From IMG/VR virus record IMGVR_UViG_3300031962_000005, positions 1 through 48,487 of that record: DNA of 48,487 nt; one strand, written 5' to 3'. The notes under the pieces were generated by a model, which worked only from the letters and a program-made list of their open reading frames with translations, did no database searches and was not told the origin of the DNA. The DNA is from a virus. The position numbers were made by a program, and so were the translations under genes. Of the stretch, positions 1,806 through 36,944 are shown piece after piece (position 1 is the first letter of the stretch; each line of letters starts with the position of its first letter).

Positions 1806-3630
1806 TCCCGCCGCCCGCTTGACCATTGGGCTTCGCTCCTGCCTGCAAGCGCTGCAGAATCTGATTGCGGTCGCCCTGCTGGCCCATGCTCCTCCGCGTA
1901 TACTCCCGCGTTGTCGTCGCCGGCTTCGGGCCGCCCGCATCTTGGCCGGCACCGCCACCCCCTGTCTCTTGCGGCGGCTCTTGCACGGTCAGGATATCCT
2001 GCAAATCCGGGTCATCCATGTACTTGCCCACCTTTTGCAAATAGACGTTGAAGTCGAGAGAGACGCCCTGCTGTTGCGCTAACTGCGCCATGGGCAGGTA
2101 GGTCTGCTGCACAATTTGGTTGAGCATGGCCAGCCGCTGTTGCGGCGTCAAATGAGGCATGCTGTACGGATCGACCCGGATGTCCATATCCTCGTAGCCG
2201 TGATCCCTGGCCAGCCTCTTCCCCCCCATCGGCCCGCGCCCCTTGCCCTGCGGATGCACGTGTCGCACCACACTCATCCCCTGAAGTCCAGGCGCGCTGT
2301 ACTCGCTGCGCATCACGGCCGTGGGGTGATGATGCCAGTACCAACACAAGGCCGATATGACTGAGGAGGAGAAGTCAACCGTGCGTTGCTGCATCTCGTC
2401 GATGGCGGCCGAAGAATTGCTGTTAAGGAGCTTCTCCTGAGTCGCGGTGTCGCCCTGCGGAGAGAGCCCGCCCATCACGTCGAGGTTGCCCGCCAGCCAA
2501 CTGAATAGCTGCTTCATGGCCTCGAACAACATGTAGTTCTGCTGGTTGGGGCCGTTGAAGCTGACCATCTTGATCTTGTCGGGGTTGTCGCACCGTATCA
2601 ATTCCATGTCGTTGGCGCGGATCACGCGGTCGCCGTCTTCGGTGGCTCCCCCCTGCACCATGCCCACGTCTTTCTGGTTCTCGGCCTGGCGCAACAACTT
2701 TCTCAGGATGCGGTTGACCGAGTCGTCGAGGTCGTAGAGATCTTGGACCGGGGCCTTGGGCAGGCAGTTGCCGGGGACCTTGCCAAAGCCGGCGATGTGG
2801 TAAGGGCCCTGATCCGGGCCGATATACTTCTGAATGCGCAGGGCCTTGCCGAAGCTGGGATGACGCGCCCCTTCCTCGCTGGCCGCTCCTGAGAGCTGAT
2901 CGTCCCTTAAGGTCAGCACAACCTTATGACGCGGCAGGTAGACCTCCCACAAGTCAACGTGGTCCTCAAACTCCTCCTCGCCGGCGAGGGTCGTGCGCCC
3001 AAGCAAGCCGATCCGCTCATCCCCCTCCATGTTGTAAATCTGGTCGCTGGAGGCCGAGAGGTCCTTGCGGGCCTTCGAGTAGAGCTTCGAGTCCTTGATG
3101 GCGGCCATGGGGACGCGGTAGCGGTGTCCCATGAAGCCGCACTCGCTGAAACGCTTGGCATGTACGTCGAAAACGAAGTCGTCAAGATCCACCACCTCGG
3201 CGAACGGCGTCCCGGCTTTCAGCTTCCACCCCATGAGGGCCGCATCGCCAGGCGTGGCCAGGGCGACCTTACAAACCCCCACCGAGAAGAGGGCATCAAC
3301 GACGCACTCCCCGAGCGTGTCCACCAGGTTGATGCGTTCGATTTCCTTGTTGGCCCAGTCCTGCATGGCGCTGACCACGGGGCGGGCTTTCTTGCTCCAG
3401 GTCGTGAGCATCACGCGCGGGTTGTGGGCGATGAGCTTGCGGCCGACGATGGTGACGTACTGGGCGATGAGGTTGCAGGGGCGGATTTTGGCGGACCCTT
3501 CTTCCGACCACCTGCGGCCCACGAAGTGGCGGACAGCGTCATAGCGCAGCTGGCGCGGGGCCCTCAGGACCAGGCGGGCCCGCTGCATGGCCGAACAGAG
3601 GCGACTGATGTCGACGTCTAATTTAGCCAA
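1777..3630 (-). CDS. Portal protein (head-tail connector)
   Basis: 617 aa. The portal forms the dodecameric ring at one capsid vertex through which DNA is packaged and ejected. N-terminal helices (MQRARLVLRAP), a conserved ARPVVSAMQDWANKEI helix, central acidic beta segments (EDHVDLWEVYLP) and a Gln-rich C-terminal half with a disordered Gly/Gln tail fit the large portals of P22/T7-like podoviruses. It lies next to the terminase block. The apparent start is TTG (complement at 3628-3630). An upstream ATG in another frame encodes only MPLG before a stop that overlaps this region, so initiation may be coupled. An alternative start is Met15. Confidence 0.88.
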   Translation of the reverse strand: MAKLDVDISRLCSAMQRARLVLRAPRQLRYDAVRHFVGRRWSEEGSAKIRPCNLIAQYVTIVGRKLIAHNPRVMLTTWSKKARPVVSAMQDWANKEIERINLVDTLGECVVDALFSVGVCKVALATPGDAALMGWKLKAGTPFAEVVDLDDFVFDVHAKRFSECGFMGHRYRVPMAAIKDSKLYSKARKDLSASSDQIYNMEGDERIGLLGRTTLAGEEEFEDHVDLWEVYLPRHKVVLTLRDDQLSGAASEEGARHPSFGKALRIQKYIGPDQGPYHIAGFGKVPGNCLPKAPVQDLYDLDDSVNRILRKLLRQAENQKDVGMVQGGATEDGDRVIRANDMELIRCDNPDKIKMVSFNGPNQQNYMLFEAMKQLFSWLAGNLDVMGGLSPQGDTATQEKLLNSNSSAAIDEMQQRTVDFSSSVISALCWYWHHHPTAVMRSEYSAPGLQGMSVVRHVHPQGKGRGPMGGKRLARDHGYEDMDIRVDPYSMPHLTPQQRLAMLNQIVQQTYLPMAQLAQQQGVSLDFNVYLQKVGKYMDDPDLQDILTVQEPPQETGGGGAGQDAGGPKPATTTREYTRRSMGQQGDRNQILQRLQAGAKPNGQAGGGNGQVLRPGG

Positions 3631-6872: not shown

Positions 6873-7161
6873 GCCGCCTCATGGTGCCAGACAGGGCCTA
6901 CCCTTGACGTAACCCCTTGAGGCGCAAGAGGGGATTAAGTCTTACCACCCTACCCGGTGCAAGGGGTGGGGGGGCGGCTCAAGCCTGGCCATGAGGCCCT
7001 GCCGGCCCTCCTGCCCCCCAGGCACACTAAAAGGCACGCCTGCCGCAACCTCTTGATCTTTAATGAGATCGGGATTTCATTGAACATAACAGTTATTATC
7101 GGACGCAGCCAATTACCAGGCGGACGGGGACGGGGATAGTAGCGCAGATATTCTTGGGGGC
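6873..7161. other. Divergent control region, left part, no gene
   Basis: No convincing gene on either strand. An imperfect hairpin (CCCCTTG...CAAGAGGGG, 6914-6934) is followed by very GC-rich sequence. An AT-rich island at about 7055-7100 contains the 11-bp palindrome ATAACAGTTAT at 7086-7096. Together with the iterons at 7162-7205 this is where early and late transcription diverge, and it is a reasonable place for an origin or operators. That role is inferred from position and composition. Confidence 0.5.
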
Positions 7162-7533: not shown

Positions 7534-7781
7534 TCGGAGTTACACGACGCCTACAGCGCCTCACGCCCGCCTCGATTCACTCGGGAGGCAGGCGCCGCGC
7601 TATCATCGTCGAGATGAGCCCGGGCATGGAAGGGAAACCAGGCCCCGGGTTCATTGGCTTCAGGCTGCACGGCACCAGGACGACGTACTATCTCCCGGTG
7701 GATTGGTGCTTCCGCGAGGCCTGCAAGGCTGAGCTTCAGAGAGCGCGGGCGGAACGCCGCGCCAAAAGAAAAGGGATTTGA
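7530..7781 (+). CDS. Hypothetical early phage protein
   Basis: 83 aa. The core GFRLHGTRTTYYLPVDWCFREA and the basic tail RARAERRAKRKGI match a short phage protein type in which a beta region precedes a helical Arg/Lys tail, suggesting nucleic-acid contact. It is coupled to the preceding gene by an ATGA overlap, and GGGGTGG is upstream. The stop lies inside the promoter of the following unit at 7778-7807. Confidence 0.7.
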   Translation: MIGVTRRLQRLTPASIHSGGRRRAIIVEMSPGMEGKPGPGFIGFRLHGTRTTYYLPVDWCFREACKAELQRARAERRAKRKGI

Positions 7782-7807
7782 CAGCGCGATGCAGCGCATG
7801 GTATTAT
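7778..7807 (+). promoter_or_regulatory. Strong sigma70-type early promoter
   Basis: TTGACA (7778-7783), 18-base spacer, TATTAT (7802-7807). Transcription would begin near 7814, two bases before the first stem strand of the structured leader at 7816-7904. This is the best consensus promoter noticed in the window. Confidence 0.75.
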
Positions 7808-7815
7808 TGCGAAGT

Positions 7816-7904
7816 CCTGGCAGGGACACCCAGCAAAACTTAACTCACTCACCGGCGCCCAGCGCTCCTCTAACCCTGCCAGGCGAATAGCCTGGGGGCC
7901 GGTG
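7816..7904 (+). promoter_or_regulatory. Structured 5' leader 1 with interleaved stems (predicted pseudoknot)
   Basis: Stem A is CCTGGCAGGG (7816-7825) with CCCTGCCAGG (7874-7883), 10 of 10 pairs. Stem B is CACCGGCgCCCAG (7850-7862) with CTGGGgGCCGGTG (7892-7904), 12 pairs around one G-G mismatch. The order 5'A-5'B-3'A-3'B is a pseudoknot topology. A competing hairpin CCAGGC/GCCTGG (7879-7895) would exclude parts of both stems, so a switch is possible. An unstructured stretch and AAGGAG follow before the ATG at 7938. The same layout recurs at 9798-9893 and 10816-10901. Confidence 0.7.
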
Positions 7905-7937
7905 ATCTTTAGCCCCTGGTCCAAAAAGGAGAAAGCC

Positions 7938-8267
7938 ATGACAAGCGAACAGGCCGTCCAGATTTACGCTGCTGAGGCCCAGGCCGCCGAACAGCTACGT
8001 CAGGATGCGGCGAGAGTGATAGCTGCTGGCGATAAATATTTGGCCGACGGCGCGCTGGCCACAAGCGCAGAGGCCAACGCGGCCGCCGAACGTGAGGACG
8101 CGCTGACCGAGATGCGCATCCACCACGACGCTATCTGTCGCCGGCCAGAGCGCGCCGCGTCCAAGGCGTACCGCGAATGGCTGGAAACGCATCCCGGCGA
8201 TCACGACGGCGCAAACGATGCCAGTTATGCTGCGTACCAACGACGGGCAGCTGGGGACGCATCATGA
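7938..8267 (+). CDS. Hypothetical early protein behind structured leader 1
   Basis: 109 aa from ATG at 7938, which has AAAAAGGAG; an in-frame start at 7902 would lie inside the leader stem. Ala/Glu-rich and largely helical (EAQAAEQLRQDAARVIAA...). The end contains LETHPGDHDGANDASYAAYQRR. No family recognised. Its strong promoter and pseudoknotted leader suggest high, controlled expression early in infection. The stop overlaps the next ATG (ATGA). Confidence 0.75.
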   Translation: MTSEQAVQIYAAEAQAAEQLRQDAARVIAAGDKYLADGALATSAEANAAAEREDALTEMRIHHDAICRRPERAASKAYREWLETHPGDHDGANDASYAAYQRRAAGDAS

Positions 8268-8491
8268 ATTTCCTAGATAACGCCATGGGCCATTTTCTCG
8301 ATGATTTCAGGCTGCTCCTGCGCGTGGAAAAAATCTTCGCGCGCTACGTCGCGGAAGGCAAGAGGCCAACGCGCGACGAGGCCAAAGCCTGGCTCGAATC
8401 GCTCGGCTGGAAACCGCATCCGCTGGCCAATATGCTGCGCCAGTGGGGGTATGAGGAACCACCAACCCCGCCCCAAGGGGCGGAAATCTGA
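8264..8491 (+). CDS. Hypothetical early protein
   Basis: 75 aa from ATG at 8264, coupled by ATGA to the preceding gene, with GGGGA upstream. A helical start (MNFLDNAMGHFLDDFRLLLR) is followed by RPTRDEAKAWLESLGWKPHPLANMLRQWGY, which resembles a small helical domain, and a Pro-rich tail. Function unknown. Confidence 0.7.
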   Translation: MNFLDNAMGHFLDDFRLLLRVEKIFARYVAEGKRPTRDEAKAWLESLGWKPHPLANMLRQWGYEEPPTPPQGAEI

Positions 8492-8505
8492 AAGGGGAAA
8501 ATGCG

Positions 8506-8748
8506 ATGACCACGAAATTCGACCTCTACGAGGTCAAAAGCCACGAGCGACACAACACCCCGGATGCTCGTCAAAAGGTCATGACCGGAACTGCCGAAGA
8601 GGTCCTGAAATACTACCAGGAATTAGGACACACTCTCCGTGTGGATCGCGGGTGGCTGGTGTGTGACGCGGGAGCCGACTCCGATACGTGCGTCGGCGTC
8701 ATGTCATGGATGGACGGCCTACCTTCTAGCGTTCTGGAGTCGTTCTAA
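8506..8748 (+). CDS. Hypothetical early protein
   Basis: 80 aa with AAAGGGGAAAA before the ATG. The motif ARQKVMTGTAEEVLKYYQELGH and the later RGWLVCDAGADSDTCVGVMSW suggest a compact alpha/beta fold. No family recognised. It stands alone between short intergenic spacers in the early block. Confidence 0.65.
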   Translation: MTTKFDLYEVKSHERHNTPDARQKVMTGTAEEVLKYYQELGHTLRVDRGWLVCDAGADSDTCVGVMSWMDGLPSSVLESF

Positions 8749-8782
8749 CGTCGGCCTGGGAAAAAATAAAAAGGGGATTACG

Positions 8783-9217
8783 ATGGCGACCAAAACAACT
8801 TTCAGCGGCACGGTGTACGGCAGCATTCAGGACCCGCGAACGGCGGACTCTTTCCTGAAAGTTATGGGATGCCAGGACGGCTCTATTGTCGTCGCGTGGG
8901 GTAACGCGCTGGAAAGTGCGGAAGAAGGCGATGAAATCGTATTTGGTGGAGGCGGCGATGGGGAAAACGGCTACGAAGTCATGATCGATGCTGATACGGT
9001 TCAGGTCGCCGGCCGCTACATCGTCGAATCGTTTTTCGAGACTCTGGACAGCAGCGAGTGGCAATTCCGAGAAAACGGCGACGTGTTCGCGGGCCTGACT
9101 CAAATCGGACATATTGGTGACGACGGCACGGTCAGCACGACTAGCGCTCTGGATGAATGCGGCGTGACCTGGGACGTAATAAATGACCTGATTCAGCGCG
9201 TGAAAGGTGCGGTGTAA
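8783..9217 (+). CDS. Hypothetical acidic early protein
   Basis: 144 aa from ATG at 8783, which has AAAGGGGATTACG upstream; the open frame extends back to 8639 but only as a shadow of the preceding gene. Strongly acidic with a Gly-rich centre (EIVFGGGGDGENGYEVM) and probably beta-rich, the kind of composition seen in small phage inhibitors and DNA mimics. That comparison is by charge only. Confidence 0.7.
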   Translation: MATKTTFSGTVYGSIQDPRTADSFLKVMGCQDGSIVVAWGNALESAEEGDEIVFGGGGDGENGYEVMIDADTVQVAGRYIVESFFETLDSSEWQFRENGDVFAGLTQIGHIGDDGTVSTTSALDECGVTWDVINDLIQRVKGAV

Positions 9218-9419
9218 CATAAAAACCGAACCAGAAATCTTCGCCGAACGCAACGCGCTTCTCTCAGATTTAGCCACACCATGCACCTGCACGACTGCGA
9301 AAACACGCGCGGCGTGTGCACGGAAGCGGAGGGACATTGCGGCAGCCGCCGTGGCCCTGACGTGGGTAATAGATCGGCACGGCGAAAAGTTGCCGAGAAC
9401 ACAGGAGAAACAGAAATGA
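9207..9419 (+). CDS. Hypothetical small protein, Ala/Arg-rich
   Basis: 70 aa from GTG at 9207, overlapping the end of the preceding gene by 11 bp. It has a CTCTTAKTRAACARKRR segment followed by an Ala-rich helix and a basic tail. The ribosome site is very close to the start, so the true start is uncertain. The TGA overlaps the ATG of the 12-codon ORF at 9416-9454, which supports translation. Confidence 0.5.
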   Translation: MRCNIKTEPEIFAERNALLSDLATPCTCTTAKTRAACARKRRDIAAAAVALTWVIDRHGEKLPRTQEKQK

Positions 9420-9454
9420 ACGAAAGCGGACCCAAAGCGCCCAGGAGGGAATGA
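9416..9454 (+). CDS. 12-aa leader peptide candidate
   Basis: MNESGPKAPRRE and stop, with AGGAG upstream and an ATGA overlap with the preceding gene. Its own 3' end contains the AGGAGG that serves the GTG start of the next gene at 9458, three bases after this stop. This would couple translation of the downstream gene to reading of the peptide. No independent evidence that it is translated. Confidence 0.35.
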   Translation: MNESGPKAPRRE

Positions 9455-9457
9455 GCT

Positions 9458-9664
9458 GTGCCTGAGTATTACCTATTATCGCACGGAGTACGATTTTGCC
9501 GGTTTGCCTCCCTGGAGGAGGCCAAAGCGGCGGCTCTCAAGTGGGGGTGCCAGATTGGCACCTACACTTACGAAGAAATTGCGTGGCTAGACTCTCCGGA
9601 GCGAGAGTCACAATTGCGTGAGGCCAGCAATTTTTACTCGATCCCGTGCCGATTTACGCCGTGA
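9458..9664 (+). CDS. Hypothetical early protein
   Basis: 68 aa from GTG at 9458 with a strong CAGGAGGG ribosome site. The sequence MPEYYLLSHGVRFCRFASLEEAKAAALKWG suggests a small alpha/beta domain (a strand pair followed by an EEAKAAA helix) of a type often seen in short phage proteins. Function unknown. It ends this transcription unit; the next 254 bp hold a promoter and leader 2. Confidence 0.7.
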   Translation: MPEYYLLSHGVRFCRFASLEEAKAAALKWGCQIGTYTYEEIAWLDSPERESQLREASNFYSIPCRFTP

Positions 9665-9750
9665 CATCCCTCCGCACGTCACGATGGGGACGCGCCCCGC
9701 GATATATCCCGACCGCGTGTGAAATTTTGGAAAATATTCCGCAACCGGTC

Positions 9751-9778
9751 TTGACGTTTTAAAGCGCCGTGGTAATCT
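9751..9778 (+). promoter_or_regulatory. Early promoter upstream of structured leader 2
   Basis: TTGACG (9751-9756), 16-base spacer, TAATCT (9773-9778). The start would fall near 9785, thirteen bases before the first strand of stem A in leader 2. The preceding stretch 9665-9750 holds only a short GC hairpin (GGGGACGCGCCCC) and AT-rich sequence. Confidence 0.6.
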
Positions 9779-9797
9779 TTCTTTCGTTCTCCAAGCC

Positions 9798-9893
9798 GCA
9801 CCCGGAGAAGCAAACAGATTTACAACCGAAGCCACGACCGCCGCCCCGGCAATTCTTGTCCGGGTGCAAATGGAGCTGACCGGGGGGCGGTCG
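9798..9893 (+). promoter_or_regulatory. Structured 5' leader 2 with interleaved stems (predicted pseudoknot)
   Basis: Stem A is GCACCCGG (9798-9805) with CCGGGTGC (9860-9867), 8 of 8 pairs. Stem B is CGACCGCCgCCCCGG (9835-9849) with CCGGGGGGCGGTCG (9880-9893), 14 pairs around a single bulged G. The strands interleave as in leader 1, and again stem B is the longer one with a G defect between its two halves. An A-rich loop joins A and B. Then a pyrimidine/purine tract with AAGGAGGGG precedes the ATG at 9919. Confidence 0.7.
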
Positions 9894-9918
9894 CTTAAAA
9901 CCCCCAAGGAGGGGCCGC

Positions 9919-10413
9919 ATGCCTGACCAACTCGGCGACCTCAAACAAGCGCTCGCCAAGGAATTCTCTGATCTAACCCCCCTCAAGGCGAAGGAGCTGG
10001 GCCTTTGCCTTCATTGCCGGCAACCGGCGCTGGCGCGCTGCCGCACCGACGCGGGCAAGCGCGAATACCAAATCAGCGCCCTCTGTGAAGTCTGCTTCGA
10101 CCAGATCACCAGCGAAGATTACGAGCCGCCCCTTCCCTTCGAGCTACAGCCCGAGGGGTGCCGCCTGCCGGGGAATTTACTGTTCGCGCTGCGCCGCTAT
10201 GTGCGCTACCAGCACCCACCCGGATATTTCCTGCTCGCGTGCCTCCAGAACGACCTGGCTGCCGCGTGTCAGCGCGCCGATGCGCAGTCGATCGAGTGCT
10301 TGTGCGAGGTAATGTTGTTCATTTACAAATTGCCGGAGCGATGCTGGGGGGACGCGGAGAAGGTAAAGCGCTGGCTCATCGCCCACGAGCCGGCCCGGGA
10401 GTCGGAGCGCTAG
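9919..10413 (+). CDS. Phage protein with paired zinc knuckles and a conserved helical domain
   Basis: 164 aa. CLHC (residues about 30-33) and CEVC (about 56-59) form a probable treble-clef or zinc-ribbon site. The second half, RRYVRYQHPPGYFLLACLQNDL through RCWGDAEKVKRWL, matches a pattern I know from many phages (GRYVxxGxPTGxFLxAVLxNDL ... CWGSxxKxxxW), for which no function is established to my knowledge. Strong AAGGAGGGG ribosome site; translation is likely governed by leader 2. Confidence 0.8.
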   Translation: MPDQLGDLKQALAKEFSDLTPLKAKELGLCLHCRQPALARCRTDAGKREYQISALCEVCFDQITSEDYEPPLPFELQPEGCRLPGNLLFALRRYVRYQHPPGYFLLACLQNDLAAACQRADAQSIECLCEVMLFIYKLPERCWGDAEKVKRWLIAHEPARESER

Positions 10414-10464
10414 GATTCAGCCCGGGGCTTGTCGCCCTGGAATTCTCTAATGGGGAGTAAACTC

Positions 10465-10806
10465 ATGAAACTGCTTGGAGTTGGATTGGTGCTGGCGCTG
10501 GCTATCACGGCCTTCGCCACCGATGTAAAGGCCGGCCTTCTGTTTCACCATCGCCGCAGCGCCAGTGCCGCCTGCGCCGTCCCGGCCGTGAGTTGCGCCG
10601 GCAGCGCCGTCATCGTGCAAAAGGAAATGATCCCGCCCCCGCCAGGAGCCATGGCCGCGCCTGTCGTGGTCGCCGCGCCCGTGGCTGCTTGCACGGGGGC
10701 CGTGGCGGCTTGCAGCGGAGCGCGCGTTCGCGCTGCCGGCTGTTCGGGGCGGGCTGGACTGTTTCGCGGGGGCCTGTTCCGCGGCCGTCGCGCTTGCGGC
10801 GGTTAA
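10465..10806 (+). CDS. Small secreted Ala/Cys-rich protein, planctomycete-like
   Basis: 113 aa from ATG at 10465 with TGGGGAG upstream. A clear signal peptide is seen (MKLLGVGLVLALAITAFATD, likely cut after VKAG near residue 24). The mature part is low-complexity, rich in Ala, Val, Cys and Pro, and ends LFRGGLFRGRRACGG. Short secreted proteins with such GRRxCGG ends are, to my knowledge, frequent in Planctomycetes. It may be a gene acquired from the host, acting in the periplasm or at the surface. No phage family recognised. Confidence 0.75.
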   Translation: MKLLGVGLVLALAITAFATDVKAGLLFHHRRSASAACAVPAVSCAGSAVIVQKEMIPPPPGAMAAPVVVAAPVAACTGAVAACSGARVRAAGCSGRAGLFRGGLFRGRRACGG

Positions 10807-10815
10807 GTCTCGTAC

Positions 10816-10901
10816 GTACTTGGCCGGGAACGTGAGTCCGTACATCGCTCACTGGTCCCAGGGATCGGGCTCCCGGCCAAGTGCTTCTTATCCCCGGTCC
10901 C
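10816..10901 (+). promoter_or_regulatory. Structured 5' leader 3 with interleaved stems (predicted pseudoknot)
   Basis: Stem A is ACTTGGCCGGGA (10818-10829) with TCCCGGCCAAGT (10871-10882), 12 of 12 pairs, extendable to 10816/10884 through a T-G pair. Inside it lie a small hairpin GTGAG/CTCAC (10832-10852) and the 5' strand of stem B, GGGATCGGG (10861-10869). B pairs beyond A with CCCGGTCCC (10893-10901), 9 pairs with one wobble. No clear promoter precedes it, so it may act within an operon. The Sak4-like start is 19 bases after stem B. Confidence 0.7.
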
Positions 10902-10919
10902 AACCAAGAAAGGAAACCA

Positions 10920-11840
10920 ATGGCTGCCACCGTAATCCAGCCCCACGAAGGCATCGAAGTAAAACACATTTGCGCCCTGATCTACGGCCAGCCCGGGGCG
11001 CGCAAATCCTCATTGTGCCAGACCGCCGACAATCCGATAACGCTGGCATTCGATCAGGGCATCTACCGCGCCTTCTCCAGAAAGACGGCCGTGCTGTTCG
11101 ATTCGTGGGCCGATGTAATCTCCTTTGACCTCCGGCCATACCGAACGATCGTCGTCGATACGATTGGGATGGCGCTCGAGAAACTGATGGCCACGATCAT
11201 CGCCGCCTCCCCCAAGAACGGCAACCGCATGGGAGGGATGAGCCTGCCTGGCTACGGCATCCTCAAAACTCAATTCGCGTCCTGGGTCAGCTCGATCCGG
11301 GAATTGGGAATCGACCTCGTCTTCACCGCGCACGAGAAGGGCGAAAAGCTGGGCGACGAGACCTATCACTGCCCGGAGATTGTCGGGGGCTCGTACGCGA
11401 CGGTGATGAATGTCTGCGATGTCGTGGGTTACTGCCATTTCGAGGGCGGGAAAAGAGTGATCGACTTCGCCCCGAGTGACCGCTTTATGGCCAAAACTCC
11501 ACCGTGCGGCTGGACACAGCTCCTCCTCCCTGACTTCGCCTCAAGCCCTGACTTCCTGGCAAAATTACTCGCCGACGCCAAAGCGTCGATGGGCAGAGTG
11601 AGTGAAGAGTCGGCCAAAATAGCGGGACTGGTCGAAAGCTGGAGAGAGTGGCTGGCGTCCGATCCATCGTTGGCGCAGGTCAATGCACGCATCACGGCCG
11701 AATTCCCGAACATGGACAAGACGGCAAAACCGCAAGTCTGGAAGCTGGTAACCGAGACCATGACCAGGGCCGGGGTGTTGTGGGACGCGCAAGCGAAAGC
11801 GTTCAAGGCCCCAACGGTTCCTTTGGGGGCATCGGCATGA
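10920..11840 (+). CDS. Sak4-like RecA-fold ATPase (single-strand annealing recombinase)
   Basis: 306 aa from ATG at 10920, with AAAGGAAA upstream. Walker A is GQPGARKSS (23-31), Walker B is TIVVDT (76-81), and VFTAHEKGEK resembles the sensor region of RecA-like phage recombinases. Sak4 proteins bind ssDNA and anneal it during phage replication and repair, usually beside an SSB or exonuclease. Here a zinc-ribbon gene and a RecB-like nuclease follow, each overlapping by 4 bp. Structured leader 3 lies directly upstream, suggesting translational control, perhaps autogenous. Confidence 0.87.
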   Translation: MAATVIQPHEGIEVKHICALIYGQPGARKSSLCQTADNPITLAFDQGIYRAFSRKTAVLFDSWADVISFDLRPYRTIVVDTIGMALEKLMATIIAASPKNGNRMGGMSLPGYGILKTQFASWVSSIRELGIDLVFTAHEKGEKLGDETYHCPEIVGGSYATVMNVCDVVGYCHFEGGKRVIDFAPSDRFMAKTPPCGWTQLLLPDFASSPDFLAKLLADAKASMGRVSEESAKIAGLVESWREWLASDPSLAQVNARITAEFPNMDKTAKPQVWKLVTETMTRAGVLWDAQAKAFKAPTVPLGASA

Positions 11841-12694: not shown

Positions 12695-13612
12695 ATGAAA
12701 TGGAATCGTTTCGCCGAGCGCTTCCCGATGCTGGTCGGGGAGGAGTGGAAGACTTTCAAGGCCTCGATTGCCGCCACCAAGGGCAACATCGAGCCCGTCG
12801 TCTACCGCATGGTGAAGGGCAGGCGCGAGGGGATCGACGGCCGCAACCGCTTTTTGGCGTGCCAGGATCTCAAACTTAAGTGCAAATTGCGCCAGATCGC
12901 CCTGCGCGACGACGAAGTCAAGGCTTACATCATCGTCCGCAACCTGACGCGCCGGCACCTCACGCCCGAATTCCGCCAGGAGCTGGTCGCCGAGCTCCAC
13001 GCCGACGGCAAGACCCTCCGGGAAATCGCCGCCGTCCTGGGCATATCGACCGGCACCGTGCAAAGGGACCTGGGCGCGCCAAATGGCGCGCGCACCGCGC
13101 AGAACCCAGGGAAAACTGGATCGTCAAAAACCTATTGCCCCCATTGTCAGACGCTCCTGCGCAAAGGGCTCCCGCCCAAGAAAAACTGTCCCATGTGCCG
13201 TGAGGAAAACACAGGACCAAAGAAGAAGAAGCGTAAGGGCGCCCGCGAAGTGCCGGTCGATGCCGCCGGGAGCGAGGTCCCGCCGCGCTGCCGCGATGCT
13301 TTCTGCGATCCCTGGGTGCAGTCCTCCATCGACTTTCTCGGGACCACGCTGGCCTCTTTCTGGCAGGAGCGCCTGGCGGACGGCATGGCCAAGCGCAAGA
13401 AACATTTCCCGTTCTTCGAGGTAAAAGACTTCACGGATGGAGTCGGGTTCGCCGGCAATTACCTTGAGCAAATCCTGGAGCACCTGAAAGCCAACAGGCC
13501 CGCCTTTGTCTGTCCCTTGTGCGCCGGCCGTGGCTGCCCGACGTGTCGGATGTCGGGCCTCGTCCCCAGGGACCTTTTTAAGAAGCTGGAGAAGGCCCAT
13601 GCCCATACCTGA
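12695..13612 (+). CDS. ParB-like protein with HTH, zinc ribbon and an inserted palindromic element
   Basis: 305 aa. N-terminal ParB/Spo0J-type segment with GIDGRNRFLACQDL (about 46-59) and YIIVRNLTRRHLT; HTH at about 105-126 (KTLREIAAVLGISTGTVQRD); zinc ribbon CPHC ... CPMC (about 148-171); a Lys-rich linker; a C-terminal domain with CPLCAGRGCPTC. Residues 127-140 (GAPNGARTAQNPGK) are encoded exactly by a 42-bp dispersed palindromic element, between HTH and ribbon. Likely a DNA-binding replication or transcription regulator. AGGAG before the ATG; the end overlaps the helicase gene by 14 bp. Confidence 0.8.
   Translation: MKWNRFAERFPMLVGEEWKTFKASIAATKGNIEPVVYRMVKGRREGIDGRNRFLACQDLKLKCKLRQIALRDDEVKAYIIVRNLTRRHLTPEFRQELVAELHADGKTLREIAAVLGISTGTVQRDLGAPNGARTAQNPGKTGSSKTYCPHCQTLLRKGLPPKKNCPMCREENTGPKKKKRKGAREVPVDAAGSEVPPRCRDAFCDPWVQSSIDFLGTTLASFWQERLADGMAKRKKHFPFFEVKDFTDGVGFAGNYLEQILEHLKANRPAFVCPLCAGRGCPTCRMSGLVPRDLFKKLEKAHAHT
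13074..13115 (-). repeat. Palindromic element inserted in frame in the ParB-like gene
   Basis: The reverse complement of these 42 bp is identical to 35181-35222, 22 kb away in the late block. It contains the same GCGCGCC-AAA/TTT-GGCGCGC palindrome and TTTTCCCTGGG end as the copies at 801-917 and 33355-33420. It adds 14 codons without a frameshift, in a likely linker. Confidence 0.9.
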
Positions 13613-33354: not shown

Positions 33355-33420
33355 CTTTTCCCTGGGATTTAAGCGCGCCGCGCGCCAAATGGCGCGCCGA
33401 CCCCGCTTTTCCCTGGGATC
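33355..33420. repeat. Palindromic element, one 51-bp unit plus partial second
   Basis: CTTTTCCCTGGGAT begins at 33355 and again at 33406, the same 51-bp period as at 801-917, with the palindrome GCGCGCCAAATGGCGCGCC. The bases before it, AAAATAGCG, also match those before 801. The repeat fills the gap between the phosphatase and the next gene; its end touches that gene's stop at 33419. Confidence 0.9.
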
Positions 33421-35179: not shown

Positions 35180-35250
35180 CTTTTCCCTGGGTTCTGCGCG
35201 GTGCGCGCGCCATTTGGCGCGCTCATTTTCCTCGGCGGCGAACTTTTCCT
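35180..35250. repeat. Palindromic element covering the end of the nozzle gene
   Basis: TTTTCCCTGGGTTCTGCGCG and the palindrome GCGCGCCATTTGGCGCGC (35205-35222); 35181-35222 is identical to the reverse complement of 13074-13115. A diverged second TTTTCCTTGGG follows at 35244, about 63 bp on. The nozzle gene ends at 35223, at the edge of the palindrome, so its last codons (RIATQGKVRRRGK) fall in this element. Confidence 0.85.
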
Positions 35251-36944
35251 TGGGTGGCGATCCGTGCCCTGATTTCTTCCATGGCCCATGGCGCCGTGGC
35301 GCTGAGCTGAATGTAGATGGCGTGGCCGGCGCGCCGGATGAAGTTCGTGAAGTTTCGGCCCGCCAGGTTCGTGGTCACCGCCCAGGTCCCCGAGGCGACC
35401 GCCGCCGACGCCAGAGCCGCTTCCGCAGTTGGGCCGACAAAGATCTGGTAACTGACGGGACCGGACGATTGAGCCAGGACGCCCTGCACGTCCTTGAGAA
35501 GCATGTCGTCCAGGTCCTCCGTGTTCAAGGGCCCAATCACGACCTGGGAGGCAATCGGATAGCCGTCGTCATCCGGCGCCGTCGGGCTCACGGCCCTCAC
35601 AAAACCGTCCCAGCTCCCGATAAGGACAACCCGGTCCCCCGGGGTGTTGCCGTCGAAGACACAGCAGCAGAGAGGATCGAGGTTTGTATTGGCGAACTGG
35701 TCTTGCCACCAGGCCCCCGTCCGCTGCTCGTAGAAGAAGTGCGTCGTCACTGCCGGCGCCGCCAAAGGAGTCACGAAGACATGGAGCCCTTGATACCTGT
35801 CGTTCCAGATGAGCCTGATCGAGTTGGCGCCGGTGTCGATATTGACCAAAAGCTGTTCGATGGCCTGGCTGATGCGCTGCGGCTGCTGACCGGGGACCAG
35901 GGAATAGATGCCGGTCTTGTTGGAGACGAAGTAGACGGTGCCGTAAGGGTCCTTGCACCACGGTATCCCCCAGGCCATGCCGATGGCGTCGGAGACCAGG
36001 TCGATTTGCCCACCGGCCATGGGGTCGCCGCGCATCATGTACAGGGTGTGGTCGCCGCCGAAGATCAAGACGTCGTCCGAATAAGGACACAACGAGGTCA
36101 CCACGTCGCCGATGAAGCCTTGCGGGGCGTTGTTGCCGGCGATGGCCTGGGCGGGGGTGATCGACAAGGGGGCGTAGTCGAAGTTTTGCGGATCGCTTAC
36201 CGCGGACATGAACCAGTTCTGTGGATCGTTGATGAGTCCGGACAGGATGATCCGGCCTCTCCAGGTAGCAATAAGGCGGGGAGCGTTTCCGAGGTTGTCG
36301 AGAGGAAGGACGCCCTTGGGCGTGCCAGGGGAACCGCCTGTATCCCCAGCCTGATAGGTTCCGATGACCCAGGGCTGTACGGTATTGATCGAGGGGTCGT
36401 AGAAGACGTAGTTGATACCATCGGCGAACCAGAGTTTTTGGTTGTTGGCGCTTGAGTAAACGAGGCCCGAGAAGTTAAGGGGGGGCGTCTCTCCCGAGTT
36501 ATTTATAGCCGGCGTCCAGACCGTGTCGCCGGCGTTGGCGACGATGACGTTGCCCTGGCTGACGGCCACGACCGTGACGATCCGCCCCGATTGACTGGTT
36601 TGCACATGACCTCCCGGCGGCGCGTAGCCGTCTCCAACGAGCAGGGCCAGTTCTTGCGCCGCCCATAAGACCCCAGCCGGCTGCGTCTGCAAATACTTCG
36701 TCAGGCCCGGCCGGGCTCCTCCGCGCCTTCTGAGGCCCGAGGGCTCGAAACCACGGACGTTAAGGGCGCGGGGAGAGGTGCGGGCATAGATCGGGGTGGC
36801 GAAGTGCTGTTCGGGACGCAAGGGCATTTGATCGACCGGGCGGTTGGGCTGACGGCAGAAGGCTTGCGACACGTCGAGCCCCGCGAGCGGGAAGTGCAGG
36901 GCCTTCATTTCGTCTTGTAGCGGTGCTTGCATGGTCTTTGTCAT
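35223..36944 (-). CDS. Tail nozzle (beta-propeller-like) protein
   Basis: 573 aa. The central part repeats beta-propeller-like strands (LWFADGINYVFYDP, RLIATWRGRIILSGLINDPQ, NWFMSAVSDPQNF, VLIFGGDHTLYMMRG, TVYFVSNKTGIYSLVPG, VLIGSWDGFVRAV). This matches the propeller nozzle proteins of podoviruses (P22 gp10/T7 gp12-like), which close the tail and gate DNA exit. It overlaps the upstream 241-aa gene by 4 bp and shares with it an FPxxGLxxxxxFxRQP and RPGL pattern near the N-terminus. The last codons lie in a palindromic element. Confidence 0.8.
   Translation of the reverse strand: MTKTMQAPLQDEMKALHFPLAGLDVSQAFCRQPNRPVDQMPLRPEQHFATPIYARTSPRALNVRGFEPSGLRRRGGARPGLTKYLQTQPAGVLWAAQELALLVGDGYAPPGGHVQTSQSGRIVTVVAVSQGNVIVANAGDTVWTPAINNSGETPPLNFSGLVYSSANNQKLWFADGINYVFYDPSINTVQPWVIGTYQAGDTGGSPGTPKGVLPLDNLGNAPRLIATWRGRIILSGLINDPQNWFMSAVSDPQNFDYAPLSITPAQAIAGNNAPQGFIGDVVTSLCPYSDDVLIFGGDHTLYMMRGDPMAGGQIDLVSDAIGMAWGIPWCKDPYGTVYFVSNKTGIYSLVPGQQPQRISQAIEQLLVNIDTGANSIRLIWNDRYQGLHVFVTPLAAPAVTTHFFYEQRTGAWWQDQFANTNLDPLCCCVFDGNTPGDRVVLIGSWDGFVRAVSPTAPDDDGYPIASQVVIGPLNTEDLDDMLLKDVQGVLAQSSGPVSYQIFVGPTAEAALASAAVASGTWAVTTNLAGRNFTNFIRRAGHAIYIQLSATAPWAMEEIRARIATQGKVRRRGK

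Follow-up and report, generated by a model that had tools for sequence, protein, structure and literature searches.

Recurrent interleaved-stem leaders, possibly pseudoknotted, ahead of early genes in unrelated phages

The virus record IMGVR_UViG_3300031962_000005 (48,487 bases, 62% G+C; an IMG/VR-type record, here called the window and meant at its full length) carries, in a plus-strand early region whose end holds recombination/replication genes (for a Sak4-like annealing protein, a ParB-like/helix-turn-helix (HTH) protein and a helicase), three mRNA leaders in each of which two long stems, A and B, are interleaved in the order 5'A-5'B-3'A-3'B. This layout, claimed for the three leaders in a preliminary description of the sequence, was found in all of them at the positions then proposed, and leaders of the same topology are present in two further phages. 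For leaders 1 and 2 the structure class is very likely genuine, and for leader 3 probably so. That the leaders form one class of cis-acting 5' pseudoknot, folding during transcription and controlling the translation of early mRNAs, is a reading to which about an even chance is given, and we infer both pseudoknot formation and function from the features set out below.

Leader 1 (7816-7905) is preceded by a sigma-70-type promoter (7778-7807) consisting of TTGACA, an 18 nt spacer and TATTAT, with 11/12 consensus matches and a TG ahead of the -10 hexamer; no 55-mer among 1000 drawn at random from the contig reaches its score. Stem A is a perfect 10 bp helix of CCTGGCAGGG (7816-7825) and CCCTGCCAGG (7874-7883), while in stem B the strand TCACCGGC-G-CCCAG (7849-7862) meets CTGGG-G-GCCGGTGA (7892-7905) in 13 pairs with a single G.G mismatch. 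The ribosome binding site AAGGAG (7926-7931) follows, and then a gene for 109 amino acids without a recognised family (7938-8267). Leader 2 (9798-9893) lies downstream of a promoter-like site, TTGACG, 16 nt, TAATCT (9751-9778), the score of which is reached by 0.5% of random 55-mers of the contig. Its stem A, formed by GCACCCGGA-G-AAG (9798-9810) and CTTGTCCGGGTGC (9855-9867), comprises 9 bp (9798-9806/9859-9867) and, past a G.G mismatch, three further pairs, to 9810/9855; its stem B, formed by CGACCGCC-G-CCCCGG (9835-9849) and CCGGGGGGCGGTCG (9880-9893), has 14 pairs and a single bulged G. The site AAGGAG (9906-9911) and a gene for 164 amino acids (9919-10413) come next, the latter again without a recognised family, its CxxC/CxxC pairs suggesting that the product may bind metal.

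Leader 3 (10816-10901) is placed between two genes. Stem A pairs GTACTTGGCCGGGA (10816-10829) with TCCCGGCCAAGTGC (10871-10884) over 14 pairs including wobbles, with a Watson-Crick core of 12 bp (10818-10829/10871-10882), and stem B pairs GGGATCGGG (10861-10869) with CCCGGTCCC (10893-10901) over nine pairs, one of them G-U. Only 1 nt separates the 5' strand of B from the 3' strand of A, and loop 1 is itself capable of forming a hairpin. The ribosome binding site AAAGGA (10909-10914) precedes the gene for a 306-residue Sak4-like protein of the single-stranded DNA (ssDNA)-annealing/RecA-like ATPase type (10920-11840; phrog_124, E 1.4e-32; Pfam AAA_24, E 5.7e-28). All of these features are on the plus strand, and the stem strands were all located by an interleaved-stem scan. 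The purine-rich ribosome site reported after each leader is thus present, and the G defect said to occupy the same place in stem B of leaders 1 and 2 does so, coming after the eighth outer pair in both, as well as in a relative outside the window (L020, below). Leader 3, which is without this defect, is the weakest case among the three and probably a divergent member of the class.

Relatives bearing paired changes had been proposed as a test of a recurring class, and they were found in two unrelated phages. Searches with the Sak4, terminase, helicase, leader 2 gene and 12037 proteins led to a near-identical fragment (L003/L004), to one terminase contig and to L006. The fragment differs from the window at three of 9757 bases, none of them in a leader, and the distant terminase contig (L005) is without a leader. 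L006, which belongs to a virus contig of 30.7 kb, was reached through a weak helicase match, and the top site of the scan in it is a leader of the same topology immediately 5' of a Shine-Dalgarno (SD) sequence and ATG; its stem A, CCTGGCAAGGG, equals that of leader 1 plus one A. A pattern made of stem A only gave 26 loci in the viral collection, among which, beyond the window duplicate and L006/L024, one more had the full layout before SD and ATG, namely L020, located on a 68 kb contig, with a stem A identical to that of leader 1 and with the same extra G past the eighth outer pair of stem B. The window phage shares essentially no proteins with the phages of L020 and L006 and has no meaningful protein similarity to them: the only matches among the three are a 23-residue helicase motif, 75 residues at 40% to an HNH-like window protein and a further, borderline match with an E of 0.001. 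The proteins downstream of the five leaders are mutually unrelated.

The stem A of leader 1, L020 and L006 can be written CCTGGCA(A)GGG, and such a (near-)identical sequence, located at the start site in three phages, could also be read at the level of DNA, i.e. as repeated CCTGGCARGGG half-sites that bind a repressor of the promoter, with stem B incidental. This is very unlikely, because that sequence is absent from the other leaders of the window phage, 2 and 3, and the pairing of stem B is kept while its sequence changes. Indeed, the stem B of L020 and L006 differs from that of leader 1, yet stays paired. When leader 1 and L020 are aligned through their common stem A and common stem B core, three pairs of stem B are changed on both sides and still paired (U-A/G-C, G-C/A-U, A-U/G-C), none being broken except at the G defect, and two paired changes distinguish the stem A of leader 1 from that of leader 3. 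The compensatory change that had been read from the differing stems of the three leaders does not follow from these alone, since their stem B cannot be aligned unless the structure is assumed; it is borne out by leader 1 against L020 for stem B and by leader 1 against leader 3 for stem A.

A cleaner test than pair counts is prediction by covariance models, a search that had been suggested as a check. Model R1 was built from leader 1 and L020 only, with stem B as its structure; it finds L006 at E 2e-4 and, run over the whole window on both strands, has leader 2 as its best other match, in register at 9802-9893 (E 0.02). Model R2, built from stem A of leader 1, L020 and L006, places leader 3 (10819-10881) first among the other window loci, weakly, at E 0.23. 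Thus, leader 2, L006 and, weakly, leader 3 were recovered by models built without them, with E-values that are rough; L020, included in both models, was found by pattern instead.

Whether such a layout could arise by chance in GC-rich DNA was weighed with an unbiased scan of both strands for two interleaved stems within 110 nt, each with at most one mismatch or bulge, using nearest-neighbour energies. With the weaker stem's energy as the criterion, the plus strand of the 48 kb window has leader 1 in first place, leader 2 in second and leader 3 in twelfth. Under dinucleotide shuffling of the entire window, sites of leader 2 strength number 0.43 per strand and those of leader 3 strength 5.4, so that in GC-rich DNA of this length the layout is no rarity and by itself no proof. 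However, when only the 5' untranslated region (UTR) of each gene is shuffled, the actual leader is reached in 0/4000 (leader 1), 1/4000 (leader 2) and 3/4000 (leader 3) cases, and the summed stem energy of any leader is matched by 0/4000 shuffles of its 5' UTR. In the three phage records, with interleaved stems allowed within 115 nt, only the five leaders pass the energy limits together with a filter for an SD and start. Other loci, 1.35 Mb in total, contain 105 sites at leader energies, of which 11 have SD and start within 50 nt; not one combines a loop 1 length of 15-35 nt with an A+C fraction of at least 0.74. The local shuffles, the independent recurrence and the recovery of other leaders by the models therefore make chance hardly credible as a general explanation; it is contradicted for leaders 1 and 2, leaving a low-level possibility for stem B of leader 3, at the strength of which a shuffled window strand holds about five sites.

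The position of the leaders is as regular as their topology. Promoter-like sites, equalled by no more than 1.4% of segments drawn at random from the respective contigs, lie 5' of leaders 1 and 2, L020 and L006; the distance from the -10 hexamer to the start of stem A is 8, 9 and 8 nt in leader 1, L020 and L006, i.e. about where transcription is expected to start, and approximately 18 nt in leader 2. From the first base of stem A to the AUG there are 122, 121, 122, 113 and 102 nt (leaders 1 and 2, L020, L006 and leader 3), and all five elements end 18-33 nt ahead of the AUG, with the ribosome site outside the stems. In the same order, loop 3 measures 8, 12, 8, 7 and 10 nt; loop 1 has 19-31 nt, of which 74-83% are A or C in four leaders, where 78% A+C is reached by 0.3% of the 24-mers of the window.

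A stem at about +1 could also serve as a 5'-end stabiliser, shielding early mRNA from decay of the RppH/RNase E or RNase J type, which depends on the 5' end. In leader 1, L020 and L006 the short distance to the -10 hexamer leaves few unpaired 5' nucleotides, which pyrophosphohydrolases require (PMC3997798), and the unrelated nature of the downstream genes would be explained. However, a simple hairpin would be enough for such a role, so that the conserved second stem is left without explanation, leader 3 has no promoter-like site upstream and leader 2 begins about 18 nt past its -10 box; stabilisation as the whole explanation is unlikely, if worth keeping in mind. Both effects may nevertheless coexist: the place directly 5' of the ribosome site in 5/5 leaders, the promoterless one included, favours translation control, and the place at the transcript start in most leaders favours 5' protection as a second effect.

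How the two stems relate to each other in time can be approached by folding. When prefixes of the transcript up to the end of the 3' strand of A are folded, stem A is the best structure in 5/5 leaders. During transcription, the 10-14 bp of stem A would form first and enclose the 5' strand of B; once the 3' strand of B has been made, 7-12 nt later, it would pair into the loop of stem A, and the result would be an H-type pseudoknot whose loop 1 is rich in A and C. In four of the five leaders the element lies within 8-18 nt of the -10 box. Such an element would most likely serve as an operator or platform close upstream of the ribosome site, where it would govern how translation of early mRNAs begins, and it would probably protect the 5' end of the mRNA as well.

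The same folding leaves room for a different use of the two stems, in which A and B are alternative hairpins and a ligand, a protein or the ribosome shifts the balance, turning the early gene on or off. Over the full leader, nested folding favours B alone in leader 1, L020 and L006 (3/5) and A alone in leader 3, leader 2 being mixed, whereas the 5' prefix gives A alone throughout; in L006, furthermore, the SD region CCAGGCAAGGGG (2022-2034, minus strand) repeats the 5' strand of stem A with one mismatch, so that the 3' strand of A could pair with either. Pseudoknot-free software is unable to score a pseudoknot and, nested folding being blind in this respect, an A-then-B pseudoknot and an A/B switch are both possible outcomes. 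Yet a loop 3 of 7-12 nt and, in four members, an A/C-rich loop 1 are what is expected of strands bridging a pseudoknot and would be unneeded in a switch, and by eye, in what was no systematic comparison, no long pairing between a leader strand and the SD was noticed in the other four leaders. The near-constant loop 3 and the A/C-rich loop 1 would accordingly favour the pseudoknot, and a mutually exclusive switch is a rather improbable, though reasonable, alternative.

Several observations weigh against the pseudoknot reading. The preference of full-leader folding for single stems is one; another is that the five-leader structural alignment, in which 99.1% of cells pair and both sides change in 20/27 pairs, was laid by hand to the structure with N padding, so that these totals lean towards the structure. 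Five members are known, three of which have one and the same stem A sequence, and this small membership, confined to three phages, is the main limit of the claim. Leader 3, besides its missing promoter, has a loop 1 with 55% A+C, and the constant spacing to the AUG could be inherited and not functional.

As for the partner of the leaders, both the downstream genes and the phages differ, so that the most probable mode is action in cis by way of a factor common to the hosts, i.e. the ribosome, decay enzymes or the polymerase. With unrelated genes behind the leaders, autogenous regulation through a single gene product is unlikely to be the general mode. The T4 gene 32 type of control, put forward in the preliminary description, is therefore not supported in that form, though it may apply to leader 3 with its Sak4-like gene. 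Were RNA polymerase the partner, the nascent leader RNA might bind it and suppress pausing or termination on early operons, as does the putRNA of phage HK022. The place at the start of early transcripts, the independence from downstream genes and the recurrence in unrelated phages would all suit such an antiterminator, and putRNA is about 70 nt long, with pairing from A3 of the PL transcript (PMC9378689). However, putRNA is built of two stem-loops and a triplex, with no pseudoknot described (PMC9378689), the stretch scanned 3' of leaders 1 and 2 showed no convincing terminators, and three elements in 3 kb, one of them intercistronic, are unlike put; a put-like role is improbable. A cis-acting pseudoknot is thus kept as the preferred reading and, in its broadest form, would constitute an unrecorded class of promoter-proximal, gene-independent RNA, spread among unrelated phages, that sets early expression in cis through a host factor (ribosome, decay enzyme or RNA polymerase) and is used three times, with diverged stems, by one phage; this proposal can be held with moderate confidence.

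Further members were sought along several lines. The stem A of leader 3 gave 16 loci in the viral collection, with a convincing stem B in the window alone; the stem A of leader 1 gave 65 loci in genome contigs, where those with interleaved partners were, as judged by eye, unlike the class; and the stem B core, run reciprocally against the viral collection, matched 53 loci, of which only leader 1 and L020 clearly have stem A too. Against isolate phages, blastn returned no match for leader 1 and chance-level matches for L020 and L006. Model R1 had no match in 357 bacterial genomes, a result that says little, as there was no positive control there. Rfam gave no match at gathering score in the window and no meaningful match at E <= 10 for the leader region or E <= 5 for L020 and L024, and a description of the class was not found in the titles and abstracts retrieved from one literature library on phage leader pseudoknots and structured-RNA surveys, which makes for a weak negative. 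Loci that share stem A in 112 kb phage contigs and in Paenibacillus were rejected as members, the hairpin there being followed by a T run in the manner of an intrinsic terminator. The hairpin concerned, CCTGGCAAGG followed by the T run, occurs in Paenibacillus genomes and 112 kb phage contigs (L009 574-633, L029 750-809, L050 3548-3607, L075 5601-5660 and L106 2119-2178); its loop CCTCCCCTG is complementary to the SD of the next gene, CAGGGGAGG, and the element appears to be something distinct, either a terminator or a leader that blocks the SD.

Other features of the window deserve mention in their own right. Between the genes that follow leader 2 and leader 3, positions 10464-10806 encode a small protein without a family match; it begins with what resembles a signal peptide, has stretches rich in Ala, Cys and Pro, and is reminiscent of planctomycete proteins. 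A further GC-rich interleaved repeat, CCTCATGG...CCATGAGG, with a G-run/C-run stem, is found at 6876-7019, between the minus-strand genes and the plus-strand early genes. The dispersed repeat TTTTCCCTGGG has seven exact copies and 10 with one mismatch, where 1.1 are expected, and adjoins the palindrome GGCGCGCCAAATGGCGCGC at four loci (802-914, 13073-13115, 33356-33417 and 35181-35254), with a 51-base spacing of TTTTCCCTGGG at 802/853/904 and 33356/33407; one such locus lies within the ParB-like/HTH gene, and the two motifs may be sites for a phage DNA-binding protein.

The closest known counterpart is the gene 32 operator of phages T4 and RB69, a pseudoknot in a phage mRNA leader 5' of the ribosome site (PMC535899), to which leader 3 adds the likeness of preceding a gene for an ssDNA-handling protein. 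The T4 pseudoknot is about 28 nt long and nucleates the binding of gp32 on UUAAA/UAAA repeats (PMC535899), whereas the elements described here span 84-96 nt, have stems of 9-14 bp and precede five unrelated proteins, among which only the Sak4-like one handles ssDNA. The HK022 putL and putR elements resemble the leaders as cis-acting RNAs that start phage early transcripts, and differ in their anatomy, a pair of stem-loops plus a minor-groove triplex without any pseudoknot, and in having RNA polymerase as their target (PMC9378689); the two adjacent stem-loops that characterize put were not found in the leaders, the stems of which interleave instead. On present evidence, the leaders are members of neither the T4 gene 32 nor the HK022 put class.

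The H-type riboswitches SAM-II, preQ1-II and guanidine-III likewise have an interleaved two-stem leader 5' of the ribosome site, with shorter stems than those of the leaders, conserved ligand pockets and a place before metabolic or transport genes; in contrast to such riboswitches, the leaders match no Rfam family. The interleaved order, 5'P1-5'P2-3'P1-3'P2, is also that of the hepatitis delta virus (HDV)-like ribozymes. These are nested double pseudoknots that include the theta ribozymes of gut phages, so that occurrence in phages is a further likeness (PMC10879173). A reading of the leaders as HDV-like ribozymes was dropped, with no P3/P4-type hairpins between the strands, a loop 1 of the length given above and, again, no support from Rfam.

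Documented phage leader pseudoknots are few, and the best-worked example, the T4 gene 32 pseudoknot with its relatives, serves the autogenous control of a single gene. An element recurring before unrelated genes, in unrelated phages and three times in one genome would, instead, be a portable module of early expression, and the five sequences, with their natural compensatory variants, make up a compact and testable set for a motif that Rfam lacks.

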